Part shown: piece by piece, positions 41,860-59,929 of the stretch | Layout of the letters: each line of letters starts with the position of its first letter | Position numbering within the stretch: the first letter of the stretch is position 1 | Made by a program: the position numbers and the translations under genes | Notes under the pieces: model-generated | What the model was told of the DNA's origin: nothing | The model's input: only the letters and a program-made list of their open reading frames with translations | The model's database searches: none | NCBI RefSeq assembly: GCF_900163965.1 | Contig: NZ_FULE01000042.1 | Span: 1-64,000 of the forward strand | From: Vibrio ruber DSM 16370 | Lineage (GTDB): Bacteria > Pseudomonadota > Gammaproteobacteria > Enterobacterales > Vibrionaceae | Length of the DNA stretch: 64,000 bases | Reading direction: 5' to 3'

Positions 41860-41872
41860 AAGTTTAAGAACC

Positions 41873-42643: not shown

Positions 42644-42685
42644 GACGCAGAGATCCATTATCTTGCGATAAATCATATTCAAAAA

Positions 42686-42707: not shown

Positions 42708-42736
42708 CTATTGCCAGCAATCTTACTTGAGCAGCT

Positions 42737-43438: not shown

Positions 43439-43506
43439 TTCTTCTCCTCTGTTTTATGTCGTAATGATCTGAATTCAATTCTTGTTTCAGGTGTTTCGGA
43501 GCATGT

Positions 43507-44676
43507 TTACTCGCCATCCAAACCCCGAATCGGTTTAACCTCTCCCCAGCTCTTACACGATGGACAGTGCCAATATAATGAATGAGAGGAGAAACCGCAT
43601 TTCCGGCAACGATAATGAGGCTTTATCCTCATCTGTTCTCCGACCATGCTTTGCAATGCAGATAAACTTTTTTTCGCCCGCCCTTCCTCAGCTTCCGCTA
43701 AGTGGTAATCCATTAACCGATAAAACCCTTTCATGGTCGGATTCTTCACCAACTGCTTCGTCAGTAAATCTAGTGCAGCCCCCACGCCTTCATGGTGAGC
43801 AACCAGCTGGGCCAGCATCAATTCAGCTGAAGCACCGGCTTGCTGGGCAATACATTTCCTTAAAAAATCAATCAGTCCCTGTTCATGACCGGAACGGTGA
43901 TAACATTCAGCAAGTGTCGGCAAAATTTCACCGACATAATCGACATCCTGCTCAAGCACCATCTCCATATAACGAATTGTATTGCGATAATCTTCTTTCT
44001 CTAAATAAAGCTTTCCTAAACCAATGCTTGCTCTGACACATTTCGGATCTTCCGACAGCGCTTTCTTGTATATTTGTATCGCTTTCATATCATCACGCAT
44101 CGATTGCGCATCCGCTGCAAGCTCACACCAAAAGTACGCAATACTCTTACGCATCTTCTTGCGGCCAAGTTTAACCAAGGCATGAGCACAATCGATGGCT
44201 TTCATCCATTCCCGGGTTTGCTGATAAATCGAAGTTAATTGAATTAACGCTGATTCCCGATGCTCGGGTTCTTCAATGAGTTGCTCGAAGATCCGCTCGG
44301 CTCGATCCAAAAAACCGGCAACCATATAGTCTTTTGCTAATTGTTGCAGTGAAAGGTTCTTTTGATCGATGGTCAACCCTGAGCGAGAGATCAGATTCTG
44401 GTGAATCCGAATTGCTCGGTCAACTTCGCCCCGGGAACGAAATAAGTTACCGAGAGCCAAATGCGTATCAATCGTCTCATCATCGACTTGGAGTAATTCG
44501 ATAAAGTGATCAACCGCCTTATCTGATTGATCAGATAACAGCAAGTTAAGTCCCGTGACATATTGACGGGAAATCTGGTGAGAGTGTTTCTGCTTGTCCT
44601 GCTGAGCACTGCGGTGACCCATATACCAACCATAGGCAGCAGCGATCGGCAATAACAAGAAGAGTATTTCTAACAT
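43507..44676 (-). CDS. lapB: Lipopolysaccharide assembly protein LapB
   Basis: LapB (YciM) is a membrane-anchored TPR protein that coordinates LPS synthesis and FtsH-dependent LpxC degradation. The 389-residue product has an N-terminal helix (MLEILFLLLPIAAAYGWYMG), about nine TPR units, and a C-terminal rubredoxin-like metal site with two C-x2-C pairs (YRCRKCGFSSHSLYWHCPSCKSWG). It lies 9 bases after lapA. Confidence 0.95.
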   Translation of the reverse strand: MLEILFLLLPIAAAYGWYMGHRSAQQDKQKHSHQISRQYVTGLNLLLSDQSDKAVDHFIELLQVDDETIDTHLALGNLFRSRGEVDRAIRIHQNLISRSGLTIDQKNLSLQQLAKDYMVAGFLDRAERIFEQLIEEPEHRESALIQLTSIYQQTREWMKAIDCAHALVKLGRKKMRKSIAYFWCELAADAQSMRDDMKAIQIYKKALSEDPKCVRASIGLGKLYLEKEDYRNTIRYMEMVLEQDVDYVGEILPTLAECYHRSGHEQGLIDFLRKCIAQQAGASAELMLAQLVAHHEGVGAALDLLTKQLVKNPTMKGFYRLMDYHLAEAEEGRAKKSLSALQSMVGEQMRIKPHYRCRKCGFSSHSLYWHCPSCKSWGEVKPIRGLDGE

Positions 44677-44685
44677 CGAGCTATA

Positions 44686-44970
44686 TTATCCGATATTCAG
44701 TTTCTCTTTCGCAACTGAGCGCTGAGCCTCACTCTTGTTCAGTTGCTTATTCAAACGACGAATCTGTAGTTTTGCTTTGAGATGCAAACTACCAAAGATA
44801 AGCCACGCGATGGCAAAACCTGTGACAAAAACTGCTCCCAAAAGCCAAGATAAATGGAACTCACCTTTTGCTAACAAATAGTTGAATGTGACAACTTCTT
44901 GGTTTTGAGCGCCCAAAGCTAAGGCAACAAGGAAGAGAACGAGAAGAAAAATGATTTTTAGGACTCTCAT
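44686..44970 (-). CDS. lapA: Lipopolysaccharide assembly protein LapA
   Basis: LapA (YciS) is a small inner-membrane partner of LapB. The ATG at 44970 (MRVLKIIFLLVLFLVALALGAQNQEVVTFNYLL) gives 94 residues with two membrane helices (about 1-21 and 40-63) and a short coiled-coil tail. The frame remains open to 45000 but the shorter start is family-typical. A terminator separates it from ihfB. Confidence 0.93.
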   Translation of the reverse strand: MRVLKIIFLLVLFLVALALGAQNQEVVTFNYLLAKGEFHLSWLLGAVFVTGFAIAWLIFGSLHLKAKLQIRRLNKQLNKSEAQRSVAKEKLNIG

Positions 44971-45064
44971 AATGGGAAAACCTGCATCAGTTATTGGCAT
45001 CCCTGATTATGCAAGAAAATCACCATCCATACCATGATAATTGATAATATCGTATCCAAAAAAA

Positions 45065-45086
45065 CGGCATATCGAATGATATGCCG
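45065..45086 (-). terminator. Terminator of ihfB
   Basis: CGGCATATC (45065-45073) pairs with GATATGCCG (45078-45086) around GAAT. The minus strand continues in TTTTTTT, so it ends ihfB before lapA. Confidence 0.92.
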
Positions 45087-45106
45087 CACAGATTCGTTTG
45101 CAAAAA

Positions 45107-45391
45107 TCAGATCGCACCATTAACGCGCTCTCTGAGCTCTTTGCCAGGTTTAAAGTGAGGGACATACTTACCATCCAATTCAACTTTTTCACCTGTTTTA
45201 GGGTTGCGTCCCGTGCGAGGCTCACGATAATGCAGAGAGAAACTGCCAAAGCCACGAATCTCTATTCTGTCACCCTGCTCCAACGATGTCGCCATATGCT
45301 CGATAATATCTTTTACGGCATCTTCGATTTCTTTCGCGGACAGATGAGTTTGCTCTGCGCACAATCTTTCAATCAATTCAGACTTCGTCAT
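45107..45391 (-). CDS. ihfB: Integration host factor beta subunit
   Basis: IHF-beta pairs with IHF-alpha to bend DNA. The 94-residue product has the family sequence [27 protein letters not shown] and the DNA-arm segment [56 protein letters not shown] precedes the ATG. It follows rpsA after a hairpin, the conserved rpsA-ihfB order. Confidence 0.97.
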
Positions 45392-45439
45392 AGTTTCCCT
45401 CTTCTTACTTGCAATATGAGCATCAAAATCCTAACTAAA

Positions 45440-45467
45440 AAAAAGGAGCCAAAGCGGCTCCTTTTTT
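45440..45467 (-). terminator. Terminator between rpsA and ihfB
   Basis: AAAAAGGAGCC pairs with GGCTCCTTTTT around AAAGC. A and T tracts on both sides; on the minus strand it follows the rpsA stop within 12 bases. Confidence 0.9.
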
Positions 45468-45477
45468 GCGAATTACA

Positions 45478-47148
45478 TTATTCGCCTTTAGCAGCCTTGA
45501 AAGCATCAGCCATAGCATTACCGAACGCGCCTTCTTCTTGCTTGTTCAGTGAAGCCATTGCTTCTTGCTCTTCTGCTTCATCTTTCGCTTTGACAGATAA
45601 GTTGATAACACGGTTCTTACGGTCTACACCAGTAAATTTCGCTTCAACACTATCACCAACGCTCAGGATGAGAGATGCGTCTTCAACTCGGTCACGAGAT
45701 ACTTCAGAAGCACGGATGTAACCTTCAACGCCATCTTCTAGTTCAATTGTAGCACCTTTCGCATCAACTGCAGTAACAGTACCATTGACTAGTGTGCCTT
45801 TTTTGTTGTCAGCAACATATGCGTTGAATGGGTCGTTTTCCATTTGCTTAACGCCAAGAGAAATACGCTCACGCTCTGCGTCAACAGCAAGAACAACAGC
45901 AGAGATTTCATCGCCTTTCTTGTATTCACGAACCGCTTCTTCTCCAGGAACATTCCAAGAGATATCAGACAGGTGAACCAGACCGTCGATGCCACCATCC
46001 AGACCGATAAAGATACCGAAATCAGTGATAGACTTGATCTTACCTGTAACTTTGTCGCCTTTCGCCTGAGCTTCAGCGAACTGTTGCCATGGGTTAGCTT
46101 TACACTGTTTCAGACCCAGAGAAATACGACGACGCTCTTCATCGATATCCAGAACCATTACTTCAACTTCGTCACCGACGTTGACAACTTTAGATGGGTG
46201 GATGTTCTTATTCGTCCAATCCATTTCTGAAACGTGAACCAGACCTTCAACGCCTTCTTCGATTTCAACGAAGCAGCCATAATCAGTCAGGTTAGTCACA
46301 CGACCAGTCAGCTTGTGACCTTCTGGGTAACGTTTTGCAATTGCAACCCATGGATCTTCACCTAGCTGTTTCAGACCAAGTGATACACGTGTACGATCAC
46401 GATCGAACTTAAGCACTTTCACTAAGATTTCGTCACCAACGTTGACGATTTCAGATGGATGCTTAACACGTTTCCAAGCCATATCAGTGATGTGCAGAAG
46501 ACCATCAACACCACCTAAATCAACAAACGCACCGTAGTCAGTCAGGTTCTTAACGATACCTTTAACTTCTGTGCCTTCTTGTAGTGTCTCAAGCAGTTCA
46601 TCACGCTCAACACTGTTTTCAGATTCGATAACAGCACGGCGAGAAACAACAACGTTGTTGCGTTTCTGATCCAGCTTAATTACTTTGAACTCTAGCTCTT
46701 TGTTTTCCAGATGAGCGGTGTCACGAATTGGACGAACGTCAACCAGAGAGCCAGGAAGGAAAGCACGAATACCGTTCAGTTCAACAGTAAAACCACCTTT
46801 AACTTTACCATTGATAATACCAACAACAGTTTCAGCTTCTTCGTATGCTTTCTCAAGAACGATCCAAGCTTCGTGGCGTTTCGCTTTCTCACGAGAAAGT
46901 TGAGTTTCACCGAAACCGTCTTCTACTGCATCCAGCGCGACATCGACTTCAGAACCGACTTCAACTTCAAGTTCGCCAGCAGCGTTCTTGAACTGTTCAG
47001 CAGGGATTGCAGATTCAGACTTCAGACCTGCATCAACAAGAACAAAACCGTTCTCGATAGCAACAACGGTACCTTTAACGATAGTACCAGTCTGGAATTC
47101 AGTTTCGTTTAGAAACTCTTCAAAGAGTTGAGCAAAAGATTCAGTCAT
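45478..47148 (-). CDS. rpsA: 30S ribosomal protein S1
   Basis: S1 binds mRNA leaders and helps unfold them for translation. The 556-residue product contains six S1 domains, recognised by repeated patterns such as [49 protein letters not shown] and [25 protein letters not shown]. There is no Shine-Dalgarno sequence before the ATG (TTTGAAGATGAAATAAATG), as in E. coli rpsA, whose leader structure drives high translation and autoregulation. A hairpin with a GGA loop lies just upstream. Confidence 0.97.
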
Positions 47149-47175
47149 TTATTTCATCTTCAAAATATTAAACTT

Positions 47176-47197
47176 CCACGGGTATCCTACCGCGTGG
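47176..47197 (-). promoter_or_regulatory. rpsA: rpsA leader hairpin with GGA in the loop
   Basis: On the minus strand CCACG-C-GGTA and TACC-CGTGG form a stem with a one-base bulge and the triloop GGA, ending 27 bases before the rpsA start. Structured leaders with GGA-type loops are known for gammaproteobacterial rpsA autoregulation; the same loop would also suit CsrA. Function here is inferred. Confidence 0.6.
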
Positions 47198-47265
47198 GGT
47201 TATGAATTTCGCCGATCATCATCCTTGACACCGACGTTCCGCACTGACGATTGCTTAGCACACGG

Positions 47266-47949
47266 CTAGCGAACCGCCAGTTTAGATTCTATATATTGTA
47301 GCGATGTTTCGAGAACCTGCTCGATAGACATAGACGTAGAGTCAAGAACCAATGCATCATCAGCAGGACGTAATGGCGCAACGGGACGATTTCGGTCTCT
47401 TTCGTCACGCTCACGAATTTCGCTTAAAAGGTCATCAAATTTAACATCAACCCCTTTAAGTTGCAACTGGTTATAGCGTCTTTTTGCCCGCTCCTCCGAG
47501 CTGGCATCCAAGAATATTTTGACTTCTGCATCAGGGAAAACAATCGTCCCCATATCTCGGCCATCAGCAACGAGTCCGGTTTCTTTGACAAACGCACGTT
47601 GACGTCGCAAAAGCGCCTCTCGTACCCGGGGGAAAGCAGCCACTTTAGAGGCAGCCATGCCCGTTTCTTCCTTACGGAGTTCTCCGGAGACATCCTCACC
47701 TTCCAGAATGACTTTGACCAAATCTCCTTCAGCAATAAATTCAACATCCAAATGCGTTGCTAAAGGTACCAAAGCATCTTCAGATTCGGTATCAACACCA
47801 TGATGAATCGCAGCCAAAGCCAGGACACGATACAGTGCGCCGGAATCCAGCAAATCAAACCCCAACGCTTTAGCGATACACATACACAGCGTACCTTTCC
47901 CGGCGCCACTTGGTCCATCAACGGTAATCACCGGTGTATAAGAAGACAT
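47266..47949 (-). CDS. cmk: Cytidylate kinase
   Basis: Cmk phosphorylates CMP and dCMP. The 227-residue product has the P-loop [15 protein letters not shown], the NMP-binding region ([14 protein letters not shown]), and [22 protein letters not shown] with R-D-E-R-D-R-N-R later. GGAGTAAGAC precedes the ATG. It lies upstream of rpsA as in other gammaproteobacteria. The AT-rich quorum-sensing block begins immediately upstream of it. Confidence 0.97.
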
Positions 47950-48256
47950 GTCTTACTCCACTATTCAAATGATTGCGGCTAAAATCCGCACCTTGCCGGT
48001 GCCGCATTATAAAGACTCAGCGGCTCAGGAGCCATAGGGGATTTCAGAAAGTTATTAAGTAGTAGATTCCTCATTTAAACAGCAATATCACGAACACCCA
48101 TCGAAATAACAAATTCATCAATTAAATTCTCACTATAACCATAATAAAAATTGATGAAAATGGCTTTTATTTGTATCCATTCATCTGAATTTATCTTACA
48201 CTCTTGACTGAAAAATCAAGATAATTATTCAATTAATACATGAGGTGTAATTTAAC
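47950..48256. other. Intergenic region with left boundary of the AT-rich block
   Basis: Base composition drops here: by hand count 28 of 60 G+C at 48001-48060, then 20 of 60 and 12 of 60 in the next two lines. An inverted repeat, TTCATCAATT (48114-48123) and AATTGATGAA (48149-48158), lies about 100 bases before the next start codon. No tRNA, integrase or direct repeat is visible at the boundary. Confidence 0.6.
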
Positions 48257-50350
48257 TTGATCACTCAATTATTGAACTATATCGCTTATCCTAAAGCTTT
48301 ATTACTTCTCTTTGCATCAATAGGTGGAGCCTGTTGGCTATCTTATTTTATTATTTATTTATCGACTAAAAAACCTAAAACTTCCGGTTCTATAAAAAAC
48401 CTCTATTACTCATATTCAACATGCGTTTTTTTTATCATCTTGTGGATTGCCAGTAATGCATACTTTCATACAGATTTACTTGTTATATTCGGTGAAAGCA
48501 GTGCTATATATATGGCAAAAATGGCAAACATATTTTCATACATGTCATTAACATTCGCATTTATCTATTCATGTTATCTGACATCAGCTATACAAGAAAA
48601 TAAATTTAAGCTTTGGGAAATCATAACCATAGCTATAATGACTATATATGCATTTTATGTAAACTTTATATCTGGATATACTATAACTGGAGTTATTATT
48701 AAAGGCCCTAGTGATTTCACCATTACTTTTGGTCAAGCGACACCCTTTTTCTTTCTATCACTATTCATATACACATTTCTAACTTTATTTAAATTAACAA
48801 AATCAATAAAAACAAACCATGTAAAAATAAAACAATTAAAATCAATATATACAGTGCTAGGAATGATTATATATCTAGTCTCAACAGCAACACTTCATTT
48901 AATCATAACCTTTATATATGATGATTTCTCATTAACTTGGATTCCTCCATTCTTAGCAATAATTTGTTTAAGCGTTGTTGGATATGCTTCTATAAATTAT
49001 AGATTCTATAGTTGGAAATACTTAATATATTCTGCTATAAAAACAGCCACAACTCTACTATTTTATATAGTCCCTATTACAATTTTATCTGTAAAATTAA
49101 ATATGCCATTAAGTTTTATTCTCATTATATTATGGTGTTTTATTCATACATATCATTGGAAAAAAATAGCAAAACTATCTACTAAAATAGCCAGTCTATT
49201 AGTATATAAAGAACCATCAACTCCTATTGAGCAAATCTACACTACATCTAAAAATGTTCATAATTCTTTACAAGATTTAATAGACACAGTTTCCCAATCT
49301 CTAAAACTTGATGGCAAACTATCCATCATATCATTAGATAATGAGTTAACTTCGATCTATAAAGAGTATTCACATGGTCAAAATTCGGCTTTAATTTTAG
49401 ATGAAATAGAATACCAATTAGATAATAAAGAGCATGATTATTTAAAAAAAATACATTTCAAGATGATTGAAAACAACTCAGCAGCAATACTTCCCATTTT
49501 TGACAATAATAATTCTATAGCCCAACTGTTATTATTACCTAGGAAATTAAATGGACTTTTATATTCAAACGAAGAAATTTATGCAATACAATGCATATTG
49601 AAAGAAATCAGTTTTTTCCTCCACTGTGAAAATAAAATAAAACAATCTCAAAAAGCAGCCATATCTATTGCTTATGAAATGAAAACTCCTTTAAAGAATG
49701 TTCAATCATATATTTCAAAAATAGAGTCCCAAATAAATAATACAGAAAAAACCACATCATTACTAAGTAATATAATAGACATACGTAAAGCCATAAAAAA
49801 TGGACATCAAATAATTAACACTTCACTCAATGATGTTGATTGTATTTCAGAATCCAATAATGATGAATATATAGATATAAGTACTCTAGTCAAGGAATCT
49901 GTTAATGATCATGCTTATGACAACCAAAAAAGTATAGATAGAATATTTATAGACATTAAAGATAACTTTACTATACACGCTAATAAAACAAAAATAACAT
50001 TTGTTATTTTTAATTTATTGAAAAACGCTATTTATTATTTCGATTCACATCCTAAAAGCATAATAGAGATAAAAACGAAATCTGAAAAATCATGCAATAA
50101 GTTATATTTTAGAGATTATGGACCTGGTATAGAAGAAAAAATAATAGATAGTATATTCAGTGATTTCTTTACTTACAAAAAGCACAATGGAACAGGACTT
50201 GGATTGAGCTATTGTAAGCGAGTAATGAAGTCTATAAAAGGAGATATTCATTGTGAGTCTATATATGGTGAATATACTGAGTTTGTTCTTGTTTTTCCGA
50301 ATGTAGGTCATTCAAGGAGCATCACAAATCATATGAAAAGAATTGAATAA
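48257..50350 (+). CDS. LuxN-like receptor with defective histidine kinase (His to Tyr) and no receiver domain
   Basis: The 697-residue product is homologous to the autoinducer-1 receptor LuxN. About nine membrane helices occupy residues 10-305, with LuxN-type segments WIASNAYFHTDLL (63-75), ATPFFFLSL and TATLHLIITFIYDDFSLTWIPP, the region holding ligand-contact residues in V. harveyi LuxN. The dimerisation helix reads SIAYEMKTPL: Tyr473 (codon TAT, 49673-49675) replaces the phospho-accepting histidine. The ATP-binding domain keeps N-A-I-Y-Y-F (Asn590), D-Y-G-P-G-I (Asp620) and N-G-T-G-L-G-L-S. The frame stops right after this domain, without the receiver domain of LuxN. It starts with TTG, with GAGGTG 9 bases upstream. 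G+C is about 25% in sampled lines. It could modulate LuxN as a partner subunit; this is inference. Confidence 0.88.
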   Translation: MITQLLNYIAYPKALLLLFASIGGACWLSYFIIYLSTKKPKTSGSIKNLYYSYSTCVFFIILWIASNAYFHTDLLVIFGESSAIYMAKMANIFSYMSLTFAFIYSCYLTSAIQENKFKLWEIITIAIMTIYAFYVNFISGYTITGVIIKGPSDFTITFGQATPFFFLSLFIYTFLTLFKLTKSIKTNHVKIKQLKSIYTVLGMIIYLVSTATLHLIITFIYDDFSLTWIPPFLAIICLSVVGYASINYRFYSWKYLIYSAIKTATTLLFYIVPITILSVKLNMPLSFILIILWCFIHTYHWKKIAKLSTKIASLLVYKEPSTPIEQIYTTSKNVHNSLQDLIDTVSQSLKLDGKLSIISLDNELTSIYKEYSHGQNSALILDEIEYQLDNKEHDYLKKIHFKMIENNSAAILPIFDNNNSIAQLLLLPRKLNGLLYSNEEIYAIQCILKEISFFLHCENKIKQSQKAAISIAYEMKTPLKNVQSYISKIESQINNTEKTTSLLSNIIDIRKAIKNGHQIINTSLNDVDCISESNNDEYIDISTLVKESVNDHAYDNQKSIDRIFIDIKDNFTIHANKTKITFVIFNLLKNAIYYFDSHPKSIIEIKTKSEKSCNKLYFRDYGPGIEEKIIDSIFSDFFTYKKHNGTGLGLSYCKRVMKSIKGDIHCESIYGEYTEFVLVFPNVGHSRSITNHMKRIE

Positions 50351-50641
50351 TAACAACATACTTAATGGTTCGATAGTAAGTTAAGTCCAGAATACAAACT
50401 TAATGAATTAATTGCTGATGATAATCATATAAAGTCACATCAAGTCAACTGAGGAAGTACGTTATAACCCTTAGACATCTATCTAGATAAGGTATATCGA
50501 TATAACACAATAGATGTAACCGAAAAAATTCAACAAAATATCATTTACAATAATCTCTTATCAAATATTAAGATATTGAATAATTGACACCAGGGTGATA
50601 TAAGTGTCAATTATACGATATAGATATTAGGGTAGAGTATT
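50351..50641 (+). other. Spacer between the LuxN-like gene and luxM
   Basis: About 290 AT-rich bases. Codons at 50408-50425 read L-I-A-D-D-N, like the start of a receiver domain, followed by stops; this may be a decayed receiver remnant of the upstream gene. Two palindromes are present, TATCTAGATA (50480-50489) and TATATCGATATA (50493-50504), and the inverted repeat at 50580-50614. Confidence 0.45.
50580..50614 (+). promoter_or_regulatory. luxM: Inverted repeat ahead of luxM
   Basis: ATAATTGACAC (50580-50590) and GTGTCAATTAT (50604-50614) are perfect 11-bp arms with a 13-nt spacer, ending 27 bases before the luxM TTG. The left arm contains a consensus -35 hexamer TTGACA. It may be an operator overlapping the promoter or an mRNA hairpin near the ribosome site. 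Confidence 0.6.
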
Positions 50642-51823
50642 TTGGATGTGATATTATCAACATCAGCGTATAACCAGCAGACAAGTCAATGGGACTCTCA
50701 GCAGAAAATATTTTTTTTCCAAACAGTCCAACGCGTACTACTTCAAGAGTTACCCACTTCAAATTTTGCTGATTTAGTTAACCTACGACAAAAGAATATT
50801 CTCTATTCTTACCCTTACTCTGACGGTGATCTTGCTTCAATATTTGAATCATCTCAAGCTATTAAACATATTCTGTCCACTCCAATGGCAGATTGCCCTA
50901 CAAACTGGCACTCTATTGAAATTTCTGCAATTGAACTATTTGGAAGTCTTCTTGCTGGGTGGGCTGAATATGAGAGATACCTGATTTTACAGAAAAATCA
51001 AGCTTTGGATTCTATAGAACTTAATATTATGTCTCTCTCATTAGATGAGAAAAAATACTATTCTGAATACGTCAGTAATATAGAAAAAGACACAAGATAT
51101 TTTACTACACTACATTGTAGTATCCCTCTTCCCCTTGCTGATGCGATTTCTCTGATAAACCTTGATACCTTTGTCATAGAACAGAAATGGTATGAAATAC
51201 TTTTTACACTTCATTTATCGCAACAAGGGAGCCATGTCTTAGTGTTTTATCACGATAAAGACTTCTCCCCAATACTAGTATCAACAGCGTTGATTCAACA
51301 TTGGCATAAGCGTGAAAACTGGCTCAGCTTTGATCCCTTCTTTAAAAATCCTAAGTGGCAAAACTGCCTAGTGAAGGATTCAGTTAAGTATCTTTATCAA
51401 ACCGGAGTTTTCAGTGAAAAAATTTTTGATGCAAAACTATATAATGATTCTATCATTGAAGACAATCTATCAGATACAGATGCTGTTTGTGAGATTTTAA
51501 GGTTAACAGTTAGCGGTCGCCATAGATTTCGTATTTTCTTGATCTTCTTATGCCAGAAACATCTAGCGAAGCAACTAATTGCAATAGGTAAAAAACTCTC
51601 ATATACTATTATAGAATCACCATTAATGCTTGACTTGTATGATTTTTTTGGCAAAGAATGTTATCTAAATCATTCTTGCTATGACATTAACAATAGTAAT
51701 ATAAAAACTTATAAAGGATTTTGGAATAATCAGGAAATAAATAACAAGTTTAAAAATATTAACTATGAAGAATATAAATTAATAATGAAGTATTACAAAA
51801 TCAGGAGAGACTCGTTTGAATAA
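50642..51823 (+). CDS. luxM: Acyl-homoserine-lactone synthase LuxM
   Basis: LuxM makes the acyl-homoserine-lactone autoinducer-1 from S-adenosylmethionine and an acyl donor; it is unrelated in sequence to LuxI. The 393-residue product matches the LuxM/AinS/VanM family best in the C-terminal domain: CEILRLTVSGRHRFR (283-297), the QKHLAKQL segment, YTIIESPLMLDLYDFFGKE (321-339), CYDINNSNIKTYKGFWN (346-362). It begins at TTG. G+C is about 35% through most of the gene but falls to about 20% in the last 200 bases. The stop overlaps the luxN start by 8 bases, so synthase and receptor are translationally coupled, the usual luxM-luxN order. Confidence 0.9.
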   Translation: MDVILSTSAYNQQTSQWDSQQKIFFFQTVQRVLLQELPTSNFADLVNLRQKNILYSYPYSDGDLASIFESSQAIKHILSTPMADCPTNWHSIEISAIELFGSLLAGWAEYERYLILQKNQALDSIELNIMSLSLDEKKYYSEYVSNIEKDTRYFTTLHCSIPLPLADAISLINLDTFVIEQKWYEILFTLHLSQQGSHVLVFYHDKDFSPILVSTALIQHWHKRENWLSFDPFFKNPKWQNCLVKDSVKYLYQTGVFSEKIFDAKLYNDSIIEDNLSDTDAVCEILRLTVSGRHRFRIFLIFLCQKHLAKQLIAIGKKLSYTIIESPLMLDLYDFFGKECYLNHSCYDINNSNIKTYKGFWNNQEINNKFKNINYEEYKLIMKYYKIRRDSFE

Positions 51824-54440
51824 TTTTATTCTTATAATAGGAGAACTTTTCTATACCAAATCTCTTCTACTATTATTTATTGCTAGTCTTGTGTTAGTTT
51901 GGCTGATTTATTTTTTTATAAAATTGAATAAACAGGGCGTTTCTCCATTTAAAACAATCTACTCTTCATACATATTTTATTCTATATTTATTATGCTGTG
52001 GATTATTTCAAACTCATATTTCCACTCTGGACTACTAACAGCTTATAGTCCTCAATATGCAATTATAATAGCAAAGGCTGCTAATGTTTTCTCATATATG
52101 GCATTTGCTTCAGCCTTTCATTTTTCTTGTGGAATTACATCTAAAAAACCGAATAATAATTTAAATTATTGGCAATGTTTAATTCTTATTACCTTCACTA
52201 TTTTTGCTTTATATACAAATTTATACTCTAATTACACGATTGTAAGCATAGATATATATGCTCCTAGTCAATTCATCATTCATTTTGGCAAATTAACATC
52301 ATTATTCTTTCTTTCAGTTATTATATTGACGTGTATCACTCTCCTCAATCTAATTCAATTAATTAAAGGAGATGATAAGTTAAAAAAACTAAAATCTATT
52401 TATATGATAATCGGTATCATTACATTTATGCTATCGACTGCTATTATACATACCTTTGTAACATATATTTTTAATGATTTTTCGTTGACTTGGCTTCCAC
52501 CAGCATTGTCCGTAACTGAACTATTATTTATGGGTTACGCTGTTCTTTATCATAGATTCTATAGCTGGCGTTATCTTGTATACACAACACTTTGTATGAT
52601 TATGACAGCAGTTATCTATATAACTCCTATATTTGTTCTTCAGTCATGGTTAGTAGAAAGTAAAAATCACATTTTTATCATCTCTTTCTGGTGTCTTCTA
52701 TGTGGCTTAACCTGGAGAAATGTTTGGCAATTTTTTTCTCAATATGCAGGCCTATGGATATACGGGGATAGAAAGCCACCGGTAGAAAGGATCCTGTCTT
52801 TAGTAGATGATTTTCAAATCTCGTCACAGCAAGCTATAACAAAACTTGAACGTTTACTTAATTTAAAACAATCTATCTTAGTTTCTGACATCAATTCAAA
52901 TAGTATTTATATTAATTATTTTCAAAAAAATTACTCCGTTTTACTTATTGAAGAGGTCGAACAATACATCAATAATAATCATAATAAAAGACTTCGTCAG
53001 ATTCGAGATCTAATGTCAAAGAACGAAAGTGCAATGATTCTTCCTATATATGATCATCATAACACTTTATCTCAATTACTTATATCTCCTAAAAAAAATG
53101 ATGGCTCTCTATATTCAAATGAAGAAATCAATGCAATTCAATTGCTTTTAAAAAAAGCACAAATTTATATCCATTATGAAACCAAAATTCACCAATCTCA
53201 AGCAATGGCAAAGTCTATTGCTCATGAGATGAGAAATCCCCTATCCCAAATTCAATTTCATCTAGAGAAATTAGATGATATTATCATTAATAGTCAACTA
53301 CCTCAAAACTTAAGAGATGAAATTCAAAAAGGAAAGAATGCTGTCCAGCATGGAAGCCAACTAATTGATATTATTTTACATGAAGTCAATCAATCTATAA
53401 TAAGTCAAGATAGAATGGAAATATTTTCCATAAAAAATCAAATAACACAGATTATTAATAGATTTGCTTATAGTTCTAGTCTATTCAAAAATCGCATAAT
53501 AATAAAACCATCCTGTGATTTTAATATATGTGTAAATAATACCTTATTCGATTTCATTATTTTCAACTTATTAAGAAATGCAATTTATTATTTTGATAAT
53601 TATTCTGATAGTAATATTGAGATATCTCTTGAAGCTGGATATGAATATAATAAACTTATTTTTATTGACTACGGCCCGGGGATTGAACCACAAATTGTAC
53701 ACAGGATCTTTGATGAATTCTTCACCTACCAAAAAAAGGGAGGCAGTGGTTTAGGCTTAAGCTACTGTAAAAGAGCAATGAAACTCTTCGGGGGGGATAT
53801 TCAGTGTCACTCAGTTTACGGTGAATACACAAGGTTTACCCTCACCTTTCCTCACGTTAAACAAGAAGAGCAACTGACACAACCAAAAATTGATGTGGCA
53901 GAATCACCATCACCCGAACGACTGAAATCAACACATCCTGTCCCTGCGAGTCAGAAACAAAAAATCGCGTTGGTTACTGATGATAATTCAACACAGCGAG
54001 CGCTGGCAAAACTCTATTTGGAATCCCTCCAGTTTACCGTTTATGAAGCGGAAAATGGCGCAGAAGCCGTTGAGATGGTTCGTCATCATGCTATTGATAT
54101 TGTTTTCATGGATGTTCAAATGCCTGTTATGGATGGATTAAAGGCATGTACCATCATTAAAGAAACTCACCCGATGCTGCCAGTTATTGCTCTGTCAGGA
54201 GAATCGGGTGATGATGAAGTTGCTCAGATAAAAAGAATAATGGATGGGTGGTTGATTAAACCCACCACCAAACAGTTATTACAGCAAACCATCCTCAAAT
54301 GGCTGGCGGTGGATACTCTTCAAGCGATAGAGCCTATCAAGATATCAAAACCTCAAACTGATACGACAGACTCTCTGTCACCGACTCACCAAGATAAAGA
54401 ATCCGTCATTAGTCATAAAACGGTGTTATCCGAATCGTGA
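51816..54440 (+). CDS. luxN: Hybrid sensor histidine kinase LuxN
   Basis: LuxN senses the LuxM product: without ligand it acts as kinase feeding phosphate through LuxU to LuxO, with ligand as phosphatase. The 874-residue product starts at TTG with GGAGA upstream. About nine membrane helices span residues 10-310, including WIISNSYFHSGLL and TAIIHTFVTYIFNDFSLTWLPP. The H-box SIAHEMRNPL has His470. N-A-I-Y-Y-F, D-Y-G-P-G-I and G-S-G-L-G-L-S follow. The receiver domain (about 715-830) has V-T-D-D-N, phospho-acceptor Asp766 in FMDVQMPVMDG, and Lys815. A 40-residue polar tail ends the protein. Base composition changes from about 23% to about 43% G+C near 53.67 kb, within the ATP-binding domain. It is convergent with comEA, 3 bases apart. 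Confidence 0.93.
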   Translation: MNNFILIIGELFYTKSLLLLFIASLVLVWLIYFFIKLNKQGVSPFKTIYSSYIFYSIFIMLWIISNSYFHSGLLTAYSPQYAIIIAKAANVFSYMAFASAFHFSCGITSKKPNNNLNYWQCLILITFTIFALYTNLYSNYTIVSIDIYAPSQFIIHFGKLTSLFFLSVIILTCITLLNLIQLIKGDDKLKKLKSIYMIIGIITFMLSTAIIHTFVTYIFNDFSLTWLPPALSVTELLFMGYAVLYHRFYSWRYLVYTTLCMIMTAVIYITPIFVLQSWLVESKNHIFIISFWCLLCGLTWRNVWQFFSQYAGLWIYGDRKPPVERILSLVDDFQISSQQAITKLERLLNLKQSILVSDINSNSIYINYFQKNYSVLLIEEVEQYINNNHNKRLRQIRDLMSKNESAMILPIYDHHNTLSQLLISPKKNDGSLYSNEEINAIQLLLKKAQIYIHYETKIHQSQAMAKSIAHEMRNPLSQIQFHLEKLDDIIINSQLPQNLRDEIQKGKNAVQHGSQLIDIILHEVNQSIISQDRMEIFSIKNQITQIINRFAYSSSLFKNRIIIKPSCDFNICVNNTLFDFIIFNLLRNAIYYFDNYSDSNIEISLEAGYEYNKLIFIDYGPGIEPQIVHRIFDEFFTYQKKGGSGLGLSYCKRAMKLFGGDIQCHSVYGEYTRFTLTFPHVKQEEQLTQPKIDVAESPSPERLKSTHPVPASQKQKIALVTDDNSTQRALAKLYLESLQFTVYEAENGAEAVEMVRHHAIDIVFMDVQMPVMDGLKACTIIKETHPMLPVIALSGESGDDEVAQIKRIMDGWLIKPTTKQLLQQTILKWLAVDTLQAIEPIKISKPQTDTTDSLSPTHQDKESVISHKTVLSES

Positions 54441-54443
54441 ACC

Positions 54444-54782
<339 letters not shown>

Positions 54783-54834
54783 TTATCCTATCGAAGCCTG
54801 CTAAAAATACGATGCTGACTGATACAAATTAAAA

Positions 54835-54854
54835 CGGGCTACAAAAGTAGCCCG
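54835..54854 (-). terminator. Terminator of ppiD
   Basis: CGGGCTAC (54835-54842) pairs with GTAGCCCG (54847-54854) around AAAA; the minus strand continues TTTTAATTTG. Confidence 0.88.
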
Positions 54855-54886
54855 CCTCAACAAACATATCAATTACATCCTGTTTA

Positions 54887-56740
54887 TCACTGTGTCGCAA
54901 GATAGTATTCAATATCGGTTTGCTCTCTGAGGATATTCAAAAGCCCAGTGAGATCCTGCTGACGATTCAGACGCTGCATCTGAACAGCCAACTGCTGAGT
55001 GAGTTGTTTATCCGGTGTCGATTCAACTTTGGTTAACTCGACTAAGACAATGTTTCCTTGACGATCTTTCGTCTGTCCATAAACTGGCTGACCATTCTGC
55101 GGTTTTTGCATTGCAAAGACTGAACGTGCCAGTGGCGAACTCCGATCAATCATCGTTAACTCACCAAATTTGAGCTTGTTGCTCTCAAGTGCTGTCGTAT
55201 CACCCTGTTTTAAACCAGCAAGTACCTTTTCAGCAATCGCTTCTGTTTGTTGCTCAGCCTTCACTTTAGACAGCGCCTCAACAACCTGCGATTTCACGGT
55301 ATCGAAAGGCAGTAATGTTTCCGGACGGGTCTCTTCAATACGGACGACCACAACATCTTCAGGTGCAACTTCAACCACAGAAGAATTCAAACCTTCATTT
55401 TTGACTTCCGGGTTATCCAACGCTTTCTGAACGGGTGCAGACTGCAAAATTTCCGGTAAATCAGTCAACGACACAAAATCAGTCGTATGAACCTTTTCCT
55501 GGACAGCTTTGGCAGCTTCGTCGAGAGAATCGGGGCTTTCAAAAGCAACTTTTTCAAGATCACTCTGTAATTGATAAAAACGATCAAGTGCCCGTTCATC
55601 CCGAATAGAAGCGATGACATCATCTTTAACTTCTGCAAAAGGTTTGACTTTTGCGGGTTTCATCGCATCTAGCTTGATAATGTGATATCCAAAATTCGAT
55701 TTCACAACATCAGAGAGATCACCGACATTTTTCAAGGCAAATGCCGCTTCTTCAAACGCAGGATCCATAACACCTTTTTCAAACCAATCCAGCTCACCTC
55801 CCTTGGTAGCACTACCCGGATCCTGAGAATCCTCTTTGGCCAGTTTTGAGAAATCAGCACCGTCTTTCAGTTGCTTCAGAATAGCATCGGCCTGCTTCTC
55901 ATCATTCACAAGAATATGGCTGACTTTACGCTGTGCTTTGGTTGAATATTGGTCTGCATGTTCCTGATAATATTTTTCAGCTTCCTCATCTGTGACTTTA
56001 ATTGATGATTTCAATTTGTCTGCTGAAAGCTCAAGGTAGGAGATTTTAAATTGCTCCGGACGCATGAAATTGTCTTCATGAGATTTGTAATATGCTTGCA
56101 AATCATCATCATTGAGTTGAATCTTCTTGGCATAATCTTCTGTCGCAAGCTTAATGGTTCTGATTTCCCGCTTCTGAGCGAATAATGCAGCCTGAGCCTC
56201 AATTTCACTGTCCAATGTAAAGTCACTCGACTGAACAGCCGTCAGAAGCTGGTTACGCAATAAATCACTTCTCAGGAATGTTGCAAACGAATCCGGAGAA
56301 AAACCAGCACGACGTAATGCTGTCTGATAAATATCCTGATCAAACTTACCTTCTGACTGGAACTGCGGCATCTCGACAATTGCCTGACGAACCTGTTCGT
56401 CACTAATTCTTAAACCCAGTGCTTCGGCATGTTGTTCAAGCAGAACATCGTTCACCATTTTATCTAATACAGAACGACGGAATGATGCAACATAACTCGG
56501 ATCAGCAAGTAGGTTTGAGAAGTAATCACCTAACTGTGATTGCATTCGGTTTCGCTCATTTTGATAAGCTTGCTCGAACTCTGCCCGGCCTATCTTTGTG
56601 TCTCCAACCTTTGCTGCTGCATTATTACTACCACCGACAAGGTAGCTACTGACTCCCGCAAATACAAATGACAAGATTATCAACCCAAGGATAATCTTAA
56701 TCGCGATGCTATTCACACCCTCGCGCAACCGATCCATCAT
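54887..56740 (-). CDS. ppiD: Periplasmic chaperone PpiD
   Basis: PpiD is an inner-membrane-anchored chaperone near the SecYEG exit. The 617-residue product begins MMDRLREGVNSIAIKIILGLIILSFVFAGVSSYLVGG, one membrane helix with the bulk in the periplasm. A SurA-like N-terminal region is followed by a parvulin domain (KVSHILVNDEKQADAILKQLKDG ... GGELDWFEKGVMDPAFEEAAF ... VVKSNFGYHIIKLDAM) at about residues 270-360. It is downstream of hupB as in E. coli. Confidence 0.95.
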   Translation of the reverse strand: MMDRLREGVNSIAIKIILGLIILSFVFAGVSSYLVGGSNNAAAKVGDTKIGRAEFEQAYQNERNRMQSQLGDYFSNLLADPSYVASFRRSVLDKMVNDVLLEQHAEALGLRISDEQVRQAIVEMPQFQSEGKFDQDIYQTALRRAGFSPDSFATFLRSDLLRNQLLTAVQSSDFTLDSEIEAQAALFAQKREIRTIKLATEDYAKKIQLNDDDLQAYYKSHEDNFMRPEQFKISYLELSADKLKSSIKVTDEEAEKYYQEHADQYSTKAQRKVSHILVNDEKQADAILKQLKDGADFSKLAKEDSQDPGSATKGGELDWFEKGVMDPAFEEAAFALKNVGDLSDVVKSNFGYHIIKLDAMKPAKVKPFAEVKDDVIASIRDERALDRFYQLQSDLEKVAFESPDSLDEAAKAVQEKVHTTDFVSLTDLPEILQSAPVQKALDNPEVKNEGLNSSVVEVAPEDVVVVRIEETRPETLLPFDTVKSQVVEALSKVKAEQQTEAIAEKVLAGLKQGDTTALESNKLKFGELTMIDRSSPLARSVFAMQKPQNGQPVYGQTKDRQGNIVLVELTKVESTPDKQLTQQLAVQMQRLNRQQDLTGLLNILREQTDIEYYLATQ

Positions 56741-56916
56741 AATTTAATCATTCTCCGGCTTAATGGCCACTTACTCAGTAAAATACTCTGTTTCTCAAAA
56801 CTATCCTTTCAGAAATCAATGAGTTTACTCATCAAAAAACTTTCACTATTGATAGTTTTCAGAACCAACTATATTCAAATTCAAAGCGAATGACGCGATA
56901 ATATCAGAAAAAAGAA

Positions 56917-56939
56917 ATGCGCATCAGTATGATGCGCAT
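56917..56939 (-). terminator. Terminator of hupB
   Basis: ATGCGCATCA (56917-56926) pairs with TGATGCGCAT (56930-56939) around GTA; the minus strand continues TTCTTTTTTC. Confidence 0.85.
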
Positions 56940-56996
56940 ATTTTCAAAACGTTTGACTTAATTTTGCCTCAATTAGCAAAATTCTGTGCAACTAAA

Positions 56997-57269
56997 TTAG
57001 TTACACGCGTCTTTCAGTGCTTTACCAGCTTTGAAAGCAGGTACTTTTGCTTCAGGGATTTGGATCTCATCCCCAGTTTTCGGATTCCGGCCAGTACGGG
57101 CTGCGCGAGTACGAACACTAAATGTTCCAAACCCAACCAGAGCAACTTGCTCACCAGACTCAAGTGTACCACTCACTGCATCAATGAATGCATCAAGAGC
57201 ACGGCCCGCAGACGCTTTAGAGATTTCAGCATCTGACGCAATTTTATCAATTAATTGTGTTTTATTCAC
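56997..57269 (-). CDS. hupB: DNA-binding protein HU-beta
   Basis: HU-beta is an abundant nucleoid protein. The 90-residue product starts at GTG (AAGGGGAATCACA upstream): [32 protein letters not shown], with the DNA-binding arm [44 protein letters not shown]. It lies between lon and ppiD as in other gammaproteobacteria. Confidence 0.96.
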
Positions 57270-57338
57270 TGTGATTCCCCTTTCTTCACCTATCGTTATA
57301 TTTAAAGGTGATTTTTTGTTCCATTAAGTCCGAAAAAT

Positions 57339-57389
57339 GGCTTAAAGCCTTGTTGTATCAAGGCTTAAGCCATAGTCAGTAACTATGGC
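57339..57389 (-). repeat. Two stem-loops between lon and hupB
   Basis: AAGCCTTG (57345-57352) pairs with CAAGGCTT (57359-57366), flanked by GGCTT/AAGCC; immediately after, GCCATAGT (57369-57376) pairs with ACTATGGC (57382-57389). They lie beyond the lon terminator in the hupB upstream region. Confidence 0.55.
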
Positions 57390-57392
57390 CTT

Positions 57393-57432
57393 CAAAAAAA
57401 ACGCTGACAAGCCTTTTTATGCGAATCAGCGT
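57393..57432 (-). terminator. Terminator of lon
   Basis: ACGCTGA (57401-57407) pairs with TCAGCGT (57426-57432); on the minus strand the stem is followed by a run of eight T. Confidence 0.8.
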
Positions 57433-57461
57433 AAACTTTTAGTTATTTTTGCTGTACATCA

Positions 57462-59813
57462 CTATTTTTGGGACTCAAACTCAACCCCTAACGGAGCACG
57501 TTCCAGCGCCACATTCAGAACATCATCAATCCATTGCACAGGGATGACTTTCAGATCAGCAATCACATTTTCTGGGATTTCTTCCAGATCGCGTTCATTA
57601 TCTTTCGGGATCAAGACGGTTTTTATTCCGCCCCGATGAGCAGCAAGTAATTTCTCTTTCAAGCCACCAATCGGTAACACTTCGCCCCGTAATGTAATTT
57701 CACCGGTCATTGCAACTTCCGCTTTTACCGGGTTGCCGGTCAGACAAGACACTAAAGCAGTACACATCGCCGTTCCGGCACTTGGGCCATCTTTCGGCGT
57801 CGCCCCTTCAGGAACGTGCACATGGATATCGCGTTTTTCGTGGAAATCGCTATTAATCCCCAGTTTGTCAGCACGAGAACGAACAACTGTCATTGCCGCT
57901 TGAATCGACTCTTGCATCACATCACCCAGTGAGCCGGTCTGAGTCAGTTTCCCTTTACCGACCATCGACTGTGCTTCAATAGTCAACAGATCGCCACCGA
58001 CTTCCGTCCAGGCAAGGCCTGTCACCTGACCAATCCGATTACTTTCTTCAGCTTTACCATAATCAAAACGCTGTACACCTAAGAATTCTTTCAGATTGTC
58101 CTGTGTGACCGTCACAAGCTTGATATCTTTATTGAGCAGAATGTTCTTCACGGCTTTACGACAAATCTTTGAAATTTCCCGTTCTAAATTACGTACGCCA
58201 GCCTCTCGGGTGTAGTAACGGATAATGCCAATGATTGCCGAATCATCAATCTCAATTTCTGCCGGCTTCAGACCATTGCGTTCAACCTGTTTAGAAACCA
58301 GATGACGTTTAGCAATATTTAGTTTCTCATCTTCGGTATATCCCGAGAGCCGAATGACTTCCATCCGGTCAAGCAGAGGCCCGGGAATATTCATTGAGTT
58401 TGAGGTTGCGACGAACATTACGTCAGACAGATCATAATCCACTTCCAGATAATGATCGTTAAATGCGTTATTTTGTTCCGGATCAAGCACCTCAAGCAAT
58501 GCAGATGACGGGTCTCCCCTCATATCTGATGACATCTTATCGATTTCATCCAACAAAAAGAGTGGATTTTTCACGCCAACCTTGGACATTTTTTGTATCA
58601 GCTTACCGGGCAGTGAGCCAATGTAGGTACGTCGGTGGCCACGAATTTCAGCTTCATCACGAACCCCACCTAATGCCATCCGGGTATATTTTCGTCCGGT
58701 TGCAGCCGCAATAGAACGCCCCAGCGATGTCTTACCAACGCCCGGAGGACCAACCAGGCAGAGAATCGGACCTTTCAATTTCTGAATCCGGTTTTGAACC
58801 GCAAGATACTCTACAATACGCTCTTTCACTCGCTCCAGTCCGTAGTGATCTTCATTTAAAATCACTTCCGCTTTCGCCAGATCTTTTTTCACTTTTGAAC
58901 GCTTCGACCAAGGAACGCTTACCATCCAATCGATATAGCTGCGCACCACAGTTGCTTCAGCAGACATCGGAGACATCATCTTCAATTTCTGAAGTTCCTG
59001 CTCGGTCTTTTCACGCGCTTCTTGAGGCATCTTAGAATCTTCAATTTTCTTCTTCAATGTCTCAAATTCATCAGGCGCATCATCCATCTCACCCAGCTCT
59101 TTCTGAATGGCTTTCATCTGTTCATTCAGATAATACTCGCGCTGGGATTTTTCCATCTGCTTCTTCACCCGGTTGCGAATACGCTTTTCAACCTGGAGCA
59201 AATCAATTTCAGATTCCATCTGGCCCATTAGGAATTCCAGACGTTCAACAACATCAATTATTTCAAGAACTTGTTGCTTATCCGCTAACTTCAAAGGCAT
59301 ATGGGCAGCAATGGTGTCAGCCAAACGAGCTGCTTCATCAATACCATTTAAAGCCGTTAAAACTTCTGGTGGAATTTTTTTATTGAGCTTAATAAACCCT
59401 TCAAACTGATTAATCGCGCTGCGAACAATCACTTCTTGCTCTTTTTCATCCAGTTCAGGGGTTACTAAGTAACGAGCTTGCGCAGAGAAAAAATCACCTT
59501 CAACAAAAGATTCAACCTGTGCTCGCTGTTGGCCTTCAACAAGCACTTTAACCGTACCGTCCGGTAATTTCAGGAGTTGTAAAATCGTCGCAACTGTGCC
59601 GACATCAAACAAATCATCAATGGTCGGCTCATCCGTTTCTGCTTTCTTTTGAGCGACTAAAAGAACCTGCTTGTCATTGTCCATTGCAGCTTCAAGACAT
59701 TGGATTGATTTTTCACGACCAACAAATAAAGGAATAACCATATGTGGATAAACCACAACGTCTCGCAGTGGCAATACGGGGATCTCTATACGCTCGGAAC
59801 GTTCCAAGTTCAT
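57462..59813 (-). CDS. lon: ATP-dependent protease Lon
   Basis: Lon degrades misfolded and regulatory proteins. The 783-residue product (E. coli 784) has the N-terminal substrate-binding domain (IEIPVLPLRDVVVYPHMVIPLFVGREKS), AAA+ Walker A VGPPGVGKTSLGRSIA, Walker B LFLLDEIDKM, and the C-terminal protease with the catalytic serine in KDGPSAGTAM and lysine in GGLKEKLLAAHRGG. A sigma-32 type promoter is visible upstream. Confidence 0.97.
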   Translation of the reverse strand: MNLERSERIEIPVLPLRDVVVYPHMVIPLFVGREKSIQCLEAAMDNDKQVLLVAQKKAETDEPTIDDLFDVGTVATILQLLKLPDGTVKVLVEGQQRAQVESFVEGDFFSAQARYLVTPELDEKEQEVIVRSAINQFEGFIKLNKKIPPEVLTALNGIDEAARLADTIAAHMPLKLADKQQVLEIIDVVERLEFLMGQMESEIDLLQVEKRIRNRVKKQMEKSQREYYLNEQMKAIQKELGEMDDAPDEFETLKKKIEDSKMPQEAREKTEQELQKLKMMSPMSAEATVVRSYIDWMVSVPWSKRSKVKKDLAKAEVILNEDHYGLERVKERIVEYLAVQNRIQKLKGPILCLVGPPGVGKTSLGRSIAAATGRKYTRMALGGVRDEAEIRGHRRTYIGSLPGKLIQKMSKVGVKNPLFLLDEIDKMSSDMRGDPSSALLEVLDPEQNNAFNDHYLEVDYDLSDVMFVATSNSMNIPGPLLDRMEVIRLSGYTEDEKLNIAKRHLVSKQVERNGLKPAEIEIDDSAIIGIIRYYTREAGVRNLEREISKICRKAVKNILLNKDIKLVTVTQDNLKEFLGVQRFDYGKAEESNRIGQVTGLAWTEVGGDLLTIEAQSMVGKGKLTQTGSLGDVMQESIQAAMTVVRSRADKLGINSDFHEKRDIHVHVPEGATPKDGPSAGTAMCTALVSCLTGNPVKAEVAMTGEITLRGEVLPIGGLKEKLLAAHRGGIKTVLIPKDNERDLEEIPENVIADLKVIPVQWIDDVLNVALERAPLGVEFESQK

Positions 59814-59848
59814 ATTCTTCTCTCTTCCGCTTTTGTCTATATGGCAGT

Positions 59849-59877
59849 ATATGGGGTCTAAACAATGGGATTCAATC
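59849..59877 (-). promoter_or_regulatory. lon: Heat-shock (sigma-32) promoter of lon
   Basis: On the minus strand GATTGAA (59871-59877) and CCCCATAT (59849-59856) are separated by 14 bases, close to the sigma-32 consensus CTTGAA/CCCCATNT. E. coli lon has the same CCCCATATA -10 element. It lies about 36 bases before the lon ATG. Confidence 0.88.
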
Positions 59878-59890
59878 GTAGAATAAAAAA

Positions 59891-59912
59891 AAGGAGGTAA
59901 TCATACCTCCTT
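59891..59912 (-). terminator. Terminator of clpX
   Basis: AAGGAGGTA (59891-59899) pairs with TACCTCCTT (59904-59912) around ATCA; the minus strand continues in a T-run. It sits just upstream of the lon promoter. Confidence 0.9.
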
Positions 59913-59929
59913 CGTGAGACTTTGCTGAA

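Follow-up and report, generated by a model that had tools for sequence, protein, structure and literature searches.

A LuxN-family receptor with pseudokinase features encoded upstream of luxM and luxN in Vibrio ruber DSM 16370

A stretch of 64,000 nucleotides from Vibrio ruber DSM 16370 (contig NZ_FULE01000042.1, positions 1 to 64,000; called the window below) carried a second homologue of the hybrid receptor kinase LuxN upstream of the autoinducer genes luxM and luxN. The product of this gene, designated psiLuxN, kept the sensor and the ATP-binding domain of LuxN, had Tyr in place of the phosphorylated His, and ended before the receiver. Comparison with a second species suggests that psiLuxN is a second receptor of the N-acyl homoserine lactone (AHL) type that turned into a pseudokinase and may have been kept as a modulator or ligand-sensing partner of LuxN output; this reading is proposed tentatively, at a little under even confidence.

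The three open reading frames (ORFs) lie on the plus strand. psiLuxN was located at 48257-50350 (697 aa, TTG start) by the ORF list, Pfam, NCBIfam, alignment and AlphaFold2; luxM, an AHL synthase of the LuxM/AinS family, at 50642-51823 (393 aa; PF17327, 290 bits); and luxN, an intact hybrid receptor kinase with HisKA, HATPase_c and Response_reg domains in Pfam, at 51816-54440 (874 aa; His470 codon 53223-53225, Asp766 codon 54111-54113). An initial annotation, made from the sequence alone, had described an 8-base overlap of luxM and luxN and a second LuxN homologue upstream on the same strand, and both were confirmed. The overlap is the most frequent spacing among 120 luxM-adjacent LuxN, which were spaced from -26 to +17, so that luxM and luxN form a usual unit. 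The NCBIfam model LuxN_Vibrio (NF041945) matched residues 6-686 of the 697 residues of psiLuxN (E 2.2e-173), and alignment with the resident LuxN gave 41% identity over 683 columns (E 8e-167). The score of psiLuxN (578.5 bits) was under the equivalog cut-off of that model (1550 bits), as was that of the full resident luxN (873.3 bits).

AlphaFold2 modelling of psiLuxN (mean pLDDT, the predicted local distance difference test score, 83) showed nine long helices before the predicted cytoplasmic part, the nine-helix sensor comprising residues 1-325 (48257-49231). The catalytic and ATP-binding (CA) domain was recognized by Pfam as HATPase_c (E 3.9e-16; residues 578-681, 49988-50299), and its N, G1 and G2 boxes were intact; the annotated sensor and ATP-binding domain were therefore both present. 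Neither HisKA nor Response_reg was found in psiLuxN by Pfam at E 0.01. The H box read IAYEMKTP, with Tyr473 (TAT, 49673-49675) at the phospho-His position, versus IAHEMRNP with His470 in the resident LuxN, and the absence of the phospho-His and the receiver held as annotated. Thus psiLuxN lacks the phospho-His and receiver Asp of a functional hybrid kinase, and has the sequence features of a histidine pseudokinase: a histidine kinase (HK) core in which the His site holds a different residue and the ATP boxes are kept. It is homologous to LuxN in both sensor and kinase core, and is placed inside the LuxN tree. Foldseek searches with the psiLuxN model recovered the general HK core; the match to DivL (4q20) ranked 44 and was rejected as evidence of kinship, being one among many HK matches.

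Conserved columns were defined by a conservation of 95% or more among 85 non-redundant LuxN, taken from 143 full-length sequences. psiLuxN kept 27 of 30 in the sensor, 9 of 11 in the linker, 8 of 13 in the dimerization and histidine phosphotransfer (DHp) domain and 34 of 36 in CA, the losses in DHp being H470, R473, N474, E484 and E523. The lowest ordinary receptors keep fractions of 0.87, 0.55, 0.85 and 0.83 in the same four regions, and psiLuxN is outside their range in DHp alone, apart from the receiver.

The V. ruber genome (G000) was compared with five related genomes (G061, G060, G201, G131 and G153). G061, which represents a second species, carried psiLuxN of 698 aa with 70% identity and the H box ISYEMKTP, in which the Tyr is retained; its counts of retained conserved columns were nearly the same (sensor 26/30, linker 9/11, DHp 7/13, CA 34/36). 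Its luxM and luxN were 80% and 85-86% identical to those of V. ruber, in the same gene order and at the same site between cmk and comEA. The presence of the same gene, Tyr and order in G061 ruled out a sequencing or assembly artefact as well as restriction to one strain, which the initial annotation had named as a reason to doubt the gene. psiLuxN was found in these two genomes alone among the 329 genomes of the family searched. The intergenic region upstream of psiLuxN was 76.8% identical between them over 310 columns. At the same site, G201, G131 and G153 (Vibrio sp. MEBiC08052) carried luxM followed by two LuxN copies, A and B, both with His and receiver, and G060 carried luxM and luxN alone.

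Selection was estimated from the pairwise comparison of G000 and G061 by the Nei-Gojobori method. The ratio (omega) of nonsynonymous (dN) to synonymous (dS) distance was 0.20 (0.15-0.25) for psiLuxN over 694 codons, compared with 0.18 for luxM, 0.09 for luxN, 0.29 for comEA, 0.06 for ppiD and 0.04 for cmk. Within psiLuxN, omega was 0.21 (0.11-0.36) in CA and 0.36 (0.18-0.70) in DHp. Neutral simulation predicted about 6 stops in the psiLuxN ORF at a distance (d) of 0.05 and 31 at d = 0.42, which is half of the synonymous distance between the two species; none is present. Transmembrane helices 1 to 7 (TM1-7) were delimited as V. harveyi residues 1-235, these limits and those of the domains being our choice. 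In TM1-7, psiLuxN had 41 amino-acid differences in 236 positions (dN 0.087) and LuxN 39 in 235 (dN 0.088), whereas dN after TM1-7 was 0.15-0.29 in psiLuxN versus 0.01-0.07 in LuxN, about 3-15 times higher. The differences in TM1-7 and downstream were accordingly 41:160 in psiLuxN versus 39:46 in LuxN (p 2e-5). These values indicate that psiLuxN is under purifying selection, the lack of which the initial annotation had named as a ground for refutation, with TM1-7 constrained like that of LuxN and the kinase part relaxed. A plain pseudogene, that is, a disrupted ORF in neutral evolution, does not agree with an ORF that is intact and free of stops in two species and disrupted in the receiver part alone.

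In V. harveyi LuxN, according to passages of PMC5007282, H210 serves C3-hydroxyl recognition and L166 chain length. The equivalents are His and Leu in psiLuxN, and His and Val in the resident LuxN; the His at 210 is found in both psiLuxN. Both also have Lys at the N176 equivalent and His at the S184 equivalent, so that the pocket of psiLuxN compares with that of the resident LuxN as L versus V at 166, K versus N at 176 and H versus D/N at 184. Ligand binding by psiLuxN is plausible from these residues. The agreement of both psiLuxN at 166, 176 and 184, where they differ from the resident LuxN, would also suit an independent receptor for another signal, the ATP domain of which is used on another partner kinase or another His protein. 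A CqsS-like kinase, a conceivable partner, adjoins a CqsA-like ORF in the genome (both names are our reading, and no CqsS model matched). However, the location of psiLuxN and its co-occurrence with one type of luxM and LuxN sensor indicate a local pathway, nothing points to another partner, and an independent receptor seems quite unlikely.

The lowest dN of psiLuxN lies in TM1-7, which, with the retained His at 210, could be explained if the ligand-binding half alone mattered and psiLuxN were a signal sink or decoy that binds autoinducer without signalling and delays the response. Purifying selection on CA and its 34 conserved columns are unexpected for a pure sink, and a similar contrast between TM1-7 and the remainder is shown by the A copy, in which the catalytic residues are intact. 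A membrane receptor would moreover be a poor sink for a small, freely diffusing AHL. A sink is considered unlikely. The three roles proposed in the initial annotation, an antagonist, a heterodimer subunit and a sink, are not separated by the sequence, as constraint on TM1-7 fits all three; because purifying selection also acts on the ATP-binding domain, a role in protein contact appears favoured over a pure sink.

A stretch resembling the LuxN receiver was detected downstream of psiLuxN in G061 (39% identity in 130 columns, E 1.7e-30). This remnant (a 369-nt match) is out of frame with psiLuxN, keeps the phospho-Asp, has DG instead of DD in the acid pocket and contains one stop in 123 codons, near the end; with such an acid pocket, stop and frame, a separate working receiver protein is unlikely. 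About 20 codons of the receiver remnant are left in the window, in the frame of psiLuxN but behind stops; they lie in the spacer between psiLuxN and luxM (50351-50641, plus strand), where 50370-50429 aligns with the start of the G061 remnant. The decayed receiver behind psiLuxN of G061 indicates that psiLuxN was formerly a full hybrid kinase, and the Tyr, being common to both species, is most simply older than their split. In neutral simulation, the probability of at most one stop in a receiver-length stretch was 0.76 at d = 0.05, 0.17 at d = 0.2 and 0.04 at d = 0.42. These values tend to favour a receiver that was still intact when the species separated and was lost independently by the two of them; an early linker stop shared by both, followed by slow decay of the receiver, is the alternative. 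If the receiver was intact at the split, a His-less LuxN with a receiver, as in V. neptunius, would have been the intermediate.

In a quick tree with 151 receptors, as in careful trees built from 19, psiLuxN grouped with the LuxN of G201, G131, G153 and G060 and with two orphan LuxN (support 1.0 in the quick tree; 95/93 for the sensor and 98/96 for the kinase part). The stem branch of psiLuxN was long (1.25 and 1.46 changes per column in the trees of 19). Grouping of psiLuxN with the A copy of G201, G153 and G131, which would make it a relocated A copy, appeared in the best sensor tree with support of 47/62 and had p 0.20 in the approximately unbiased (AU) test for the kinase part; grouping with the B and resident LuxN was likewise not rejected (p 0.33 and 0.20).

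The region around psiLuxN appears to have been exchanged among close relatives. G060 and G061 shared 97.2% identity as far as a point some 210 nt ahead of psiLuxN, and the flank match of G000 and G060 (94.6%) ended at window position 48048. LuxN of G060 and G061 was 97-99% identical from codon 301, whereas LuxM was 43% and the LuxN sensor 50% identical; the break is sharp at about codon 300, where identity changed from 0.43 (codons 271-300) to 0.97 (codons 301-330; loci L077 and L091). psiLuxN, luxM and the LuxN sensor of G061 versus luxM and the sensor of G060 may thus represent one exchanged block, as in pherotype switching. Between G000 and G061, dS was 0.84 for psiLuxN, 0.57 for luxM, 0.75 for luxN and 0.74 for ppiD, with a lower value of 0.34 for cmk. 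Since these two genomes share one version of psiLuxN at neighbour-like distances, it was likeliest G060 that replaced it.

That psiLuxN is a remnant in decay, left from the receptor of a duplicated luxMN system after loss first of the His and then of the receiver, and has no present function, would explain the loss of the receiver in both lineages and its ongoing decay in G061, the shared loss of the His, the omega of DHp and the long stem. The apparent exchange of luxM and LuxN sensors in the clade and the close relative G060 without psiLuxN at the locus also fit such a remnant. Against it stand intact ORFs of 697 and 698 codons with an omega of 0.20, TM1-7 constrained like LuxN, intact ATP boxes, and a start context and upstream region (77% identical) that are similar in G061; we regard a remnant as somewhat unlikely. 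As a second species has psiLuxN and selection still acts on it, a working modulator is more likely than junk.

Several observations weigh against a retained modulator. The constraint rests on one pairwise comparison, because two genomes alone carry psiLuxN, and omega averages over time, so that a recent loss of function is compatible with the data. The long stem branch and the receiver loss in both lineages show relaxation as judged from the sequences. TM8-9, which couples sensor and kinase, has an identity of 53% between psiLuxN of the two species. As a control that speaks against a special pattern, copies A and B of G201/G131, in which His and receiver are intact, are also fast in TM8-9 (dN 0.15 and 0.24); in the A copy, dN of TM1-7 (0.039) is lower than that of CA (0.078), and the B copy is fast in residues 321-450 (0.15). 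DHp (0.15) and CA (0.22) of psiLuxN are just about 2-3 times faster than those of the A and B copies. Finally, Y55, N178 and E235 (LuxN numbering), family-conserved sensor residues, are altered in both psiLuxN, and ligand binding may therefore differ. The dN of psiLuxN in TM1-7 lies inside the range of the A and B copies (0.039-0.113).

A modulator of LuxN would find its relay in this genome, in which LuxU (151 bits, cut-off 140) and LuxO (864 bits, cut-off 800) were both detected. psiLuxN would bind the LuxM product or a close analogue, pair with LuxN through the dimerizing helices and shift the balance of kinase and phosphatase activity feeding LuxU and LuxO. A psiLuxN:LuxN heterodimer would have one phosphorylatable His and one receiver rather than two; the simplest expectation is that LuxN kinase output falls and that cells leave the low-density state at a lower threshold of signal. 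Ligand on psiLuxN would gate this effect. In V. harveyi, passages of PMC5394107 state that LuxN copy number sets the sensitivity to the autoinducer HAI-1, and that LuxN phosphatase activity is reportedly not ligand-controlled.

The working mode might resemble that of DivL on CckA signalling, of RetS on GacS, or of the FasB/FasC pair; action of kinase-dead or ATPase-dead kinases on a partner is established. Caulobacter DivL, with Tyr550 in place of the His, had no kinase activity in vitro and influences the pathway of the hybrid kinase CckA (PMC4211667). Like psiLuxN, it keeps the HK fold with Tyr at the phospho-His site; unlike psiLuxN, it has LuxN homology confined to the HK core, contains PAS domains and senses DivK~P, not an autoinducer. 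RetS reduces signalling through GacS in three ways (PMC5992135), and data on FasB/FasC fit a heterodimer that uses the His of FasC and can dispense with the FasC kinase domain (PMC12675982). Each system has a sensor kinase that modulates, or joins with, a second one, as proposed for psiLuxN and LuxN, but RetS has a degenerate ATPase and keeps the H box, the Fas proteins are streptococcal, and neither is a LuxN. LuxN of V. harveyi/campbellii, the HAI-1 receptor and a hybrid HK, is homologous to psiLuxN across sensor, DHp and CA, and shares the luxM locus, the nine helices and the H210 equivalent; psiLuxN differs in the Tyr, the missing receiver, the position 5' of luxM, the status as an extra copy and the Lys at the N176 equivalent.

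A LuxM-family synthase was found in 102 of 227 Vibrio genomes, and a LuxN-type sensor in 117 of them and in 153 of the 329 genomes of the family. After LuxN ORFs with identical last 120 residues had been merged (166 to 155), 155 non-redundant ORFs from loci of 113 Vibrio and 22 other genomes were aligned; the latter are 22 of the 36 non-Vibrio Vibrionaceae genomes with a match, and four of the 117 Vibrio genomes (G015, G143, G151, G204) are missing, presumably through merging, G151 being broken. The phospho-His column held His in 148, Tyr in 2 (both psiLuxN), Asn in 2 (G100, G101) and a gap in 3, and the receiver-Asp column Asp in 146 and a gap in 9. A LuxN was called luxM-adjacent if a luxM ORF ended in the range from 60 nt inside it to 300 nt ahead of its start; five ORFs, four of them fragments and one with no upstream sequence visible, lie outside the comparison below. 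The search for degraded extra copies proposed in the initial annotation showed that His or receiver was lost in 7 of 14 extra copies, both of them in the psiLuxN type, versus 0 of 120 luxM-adjacent receptors and 0 of 16 sole LuxN without adjacent luxM. The Fisher p of 2.6e-8 for this enrichment overstates its significance, because the 7 degraded copies are non-independent and derive from about three lineages. Ten of the 14 extra copies were at a luxM locus; of the other four, G168 has two, and G100 and G101 have one apiece.

The three degraded lineages are psiLuxN (Tyr, no receiver), a short type (His, no receiver) and an Asn type with a receiver. The short type, a second LuxN 3' of luxN, was found in V. 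bivalvicida (G024; L072 6922-9039), V. europaeus (G047; L073 3015-5123) and G218 (L074 3036-5153). It resembles psiLuxN as an extra copy without receiver at the luxM locus in which TM1-7 is least diverged (G024/G047), and differs in the phospho-His that it keeps, the position downstream of luxN and the clade. Between G024 and G047, in which dS is saturated, dN was 0.13 in TM1-7 and 0.18-0.35 downstream for the short type, and 0.09 and 0.03-0.11 for its luxM-adjacent partner. The Asn type is a full-length LuxN (IANEMQSP) of V. neptunius G101 and its near relative G100 (L083 2638-5139, minus strand; L085 3904-6405, plus strand). It is likewise an extra copy without phospho-His, but has Asn rather than Tyr, a receiver that keeps 22 of 24 conserved columns, and a place away from luxM. 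Ten CA differences and none in DHp separated G100 and G101, a pair too close to judge (dS about 0.02-0.11). The Asn type is possibly a phosphatase-only receptor.

The statement in the initial annotation that known systems have one receptor per LuxM proved wrong, in view of the 14 extra copies and of tandem luxN1/luxN2, about 46% identical, in V. coralliilyticus OCN008 and BAA-450 (passages of PMC11837519). That locus likewise has two LuxN homologues beside luxM; unlike psiLuxN, both copies of BAA-450 (G037; L075/L249) keep His and receiver and sit downstream of luxM. No description of a His-less or receiver-less LuxN was found in the literature searched, which was covered as titles, abstract openings and passages. 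Tandem luxN and pseudokinase partners are already known; their combination, its restriction to extra copies in this set and its co-exchange with luxM were not found at that coverage.

Other arrangements were seen in the survey. Celerinatantimonas diazotrophica, outside Vibrionaceae, had two adjacent LuxN-like ORFs (L217 7710-10172 and 10272-12758). Vibrio sp. AND4 (G148) carried a full luxM, a shorter luxM-like ORF (289 aa) and luxN at L087 2322-7668, and an additional luxM-luxN locus at L088. Sixteen genomes (L071, L057 and 14 further loci) had a single intact LuxN and no luxM that ended in the 300 nt preceding it; two of them, G057 and G171, are outside the 102 genomes with a luxM match. Such lone LuxN are possible eavesdropping receptors.

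In the window, the locus is bracketed by cmk (47266-47949, minus strand) and comEA (54444-54776, minus strand); these names and rpsA, ihfB, ppiD, hupB and lon were assigned by our reading of the translations. The 5' region of psiLuxN (48049-48256, plus strand) begins where the flank match with G060 stops, within the presumed exchanged cassette, and contains a Shine-Dalgarno-like GAGGTG (48242-48247) before the TTG start, with a comparable start context in G061. No luxM remnant was found 5' of psiLuxN (best tblastn E 0.1). The sensor half of LuxN (codons 1-300, 51816-52715, plus strand) varies jointly with luxM, and with psiLuxN, among close relatives. The GC content (48257-54437) was 27% in psiLuxN, 33% in luxM, 30% in luxN codons 1-690 and 43% in the remaining receiver part of luxN, with 43% for the window. 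Promoter and terminator predictions were at shuffled background (42 versus 41.5 promoters; 2 versus 1.9 terminators) and uninformative, and Rfam at gathering scores gave no match in 40000-60000.

LuxN is commonly viewed as a single receptor serving a single signal. A conserved His-less and receiver-less partner, if psiLuxN is one, would bring pairing of receptors into the quorum sensing of Vibrio and would allow the influence of kinase-dead subunits on threshold and gain to be tested in a natural system. It would bear on why catalytic parts were lost from extra LuxN copies in about three lineages and from luxM-adjacent ones in none in this set, and the apparent exchange at the border of sensor and kinase offers natural chimeras for mapping ligand specificity. 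Extra LuxN copies may repeatedly turn into co-receptors, kinase-dead or without a receiver, which retain the half that binds ligand and tune the resident LuxN, and in this clade psiLuxN, luxM and the LuxN sensor may form an exchangeable pherotype cassette; this wider reading is possible rather than probable. If it is true, signal, receptor and built-in modulator would be inherited and swapped together.

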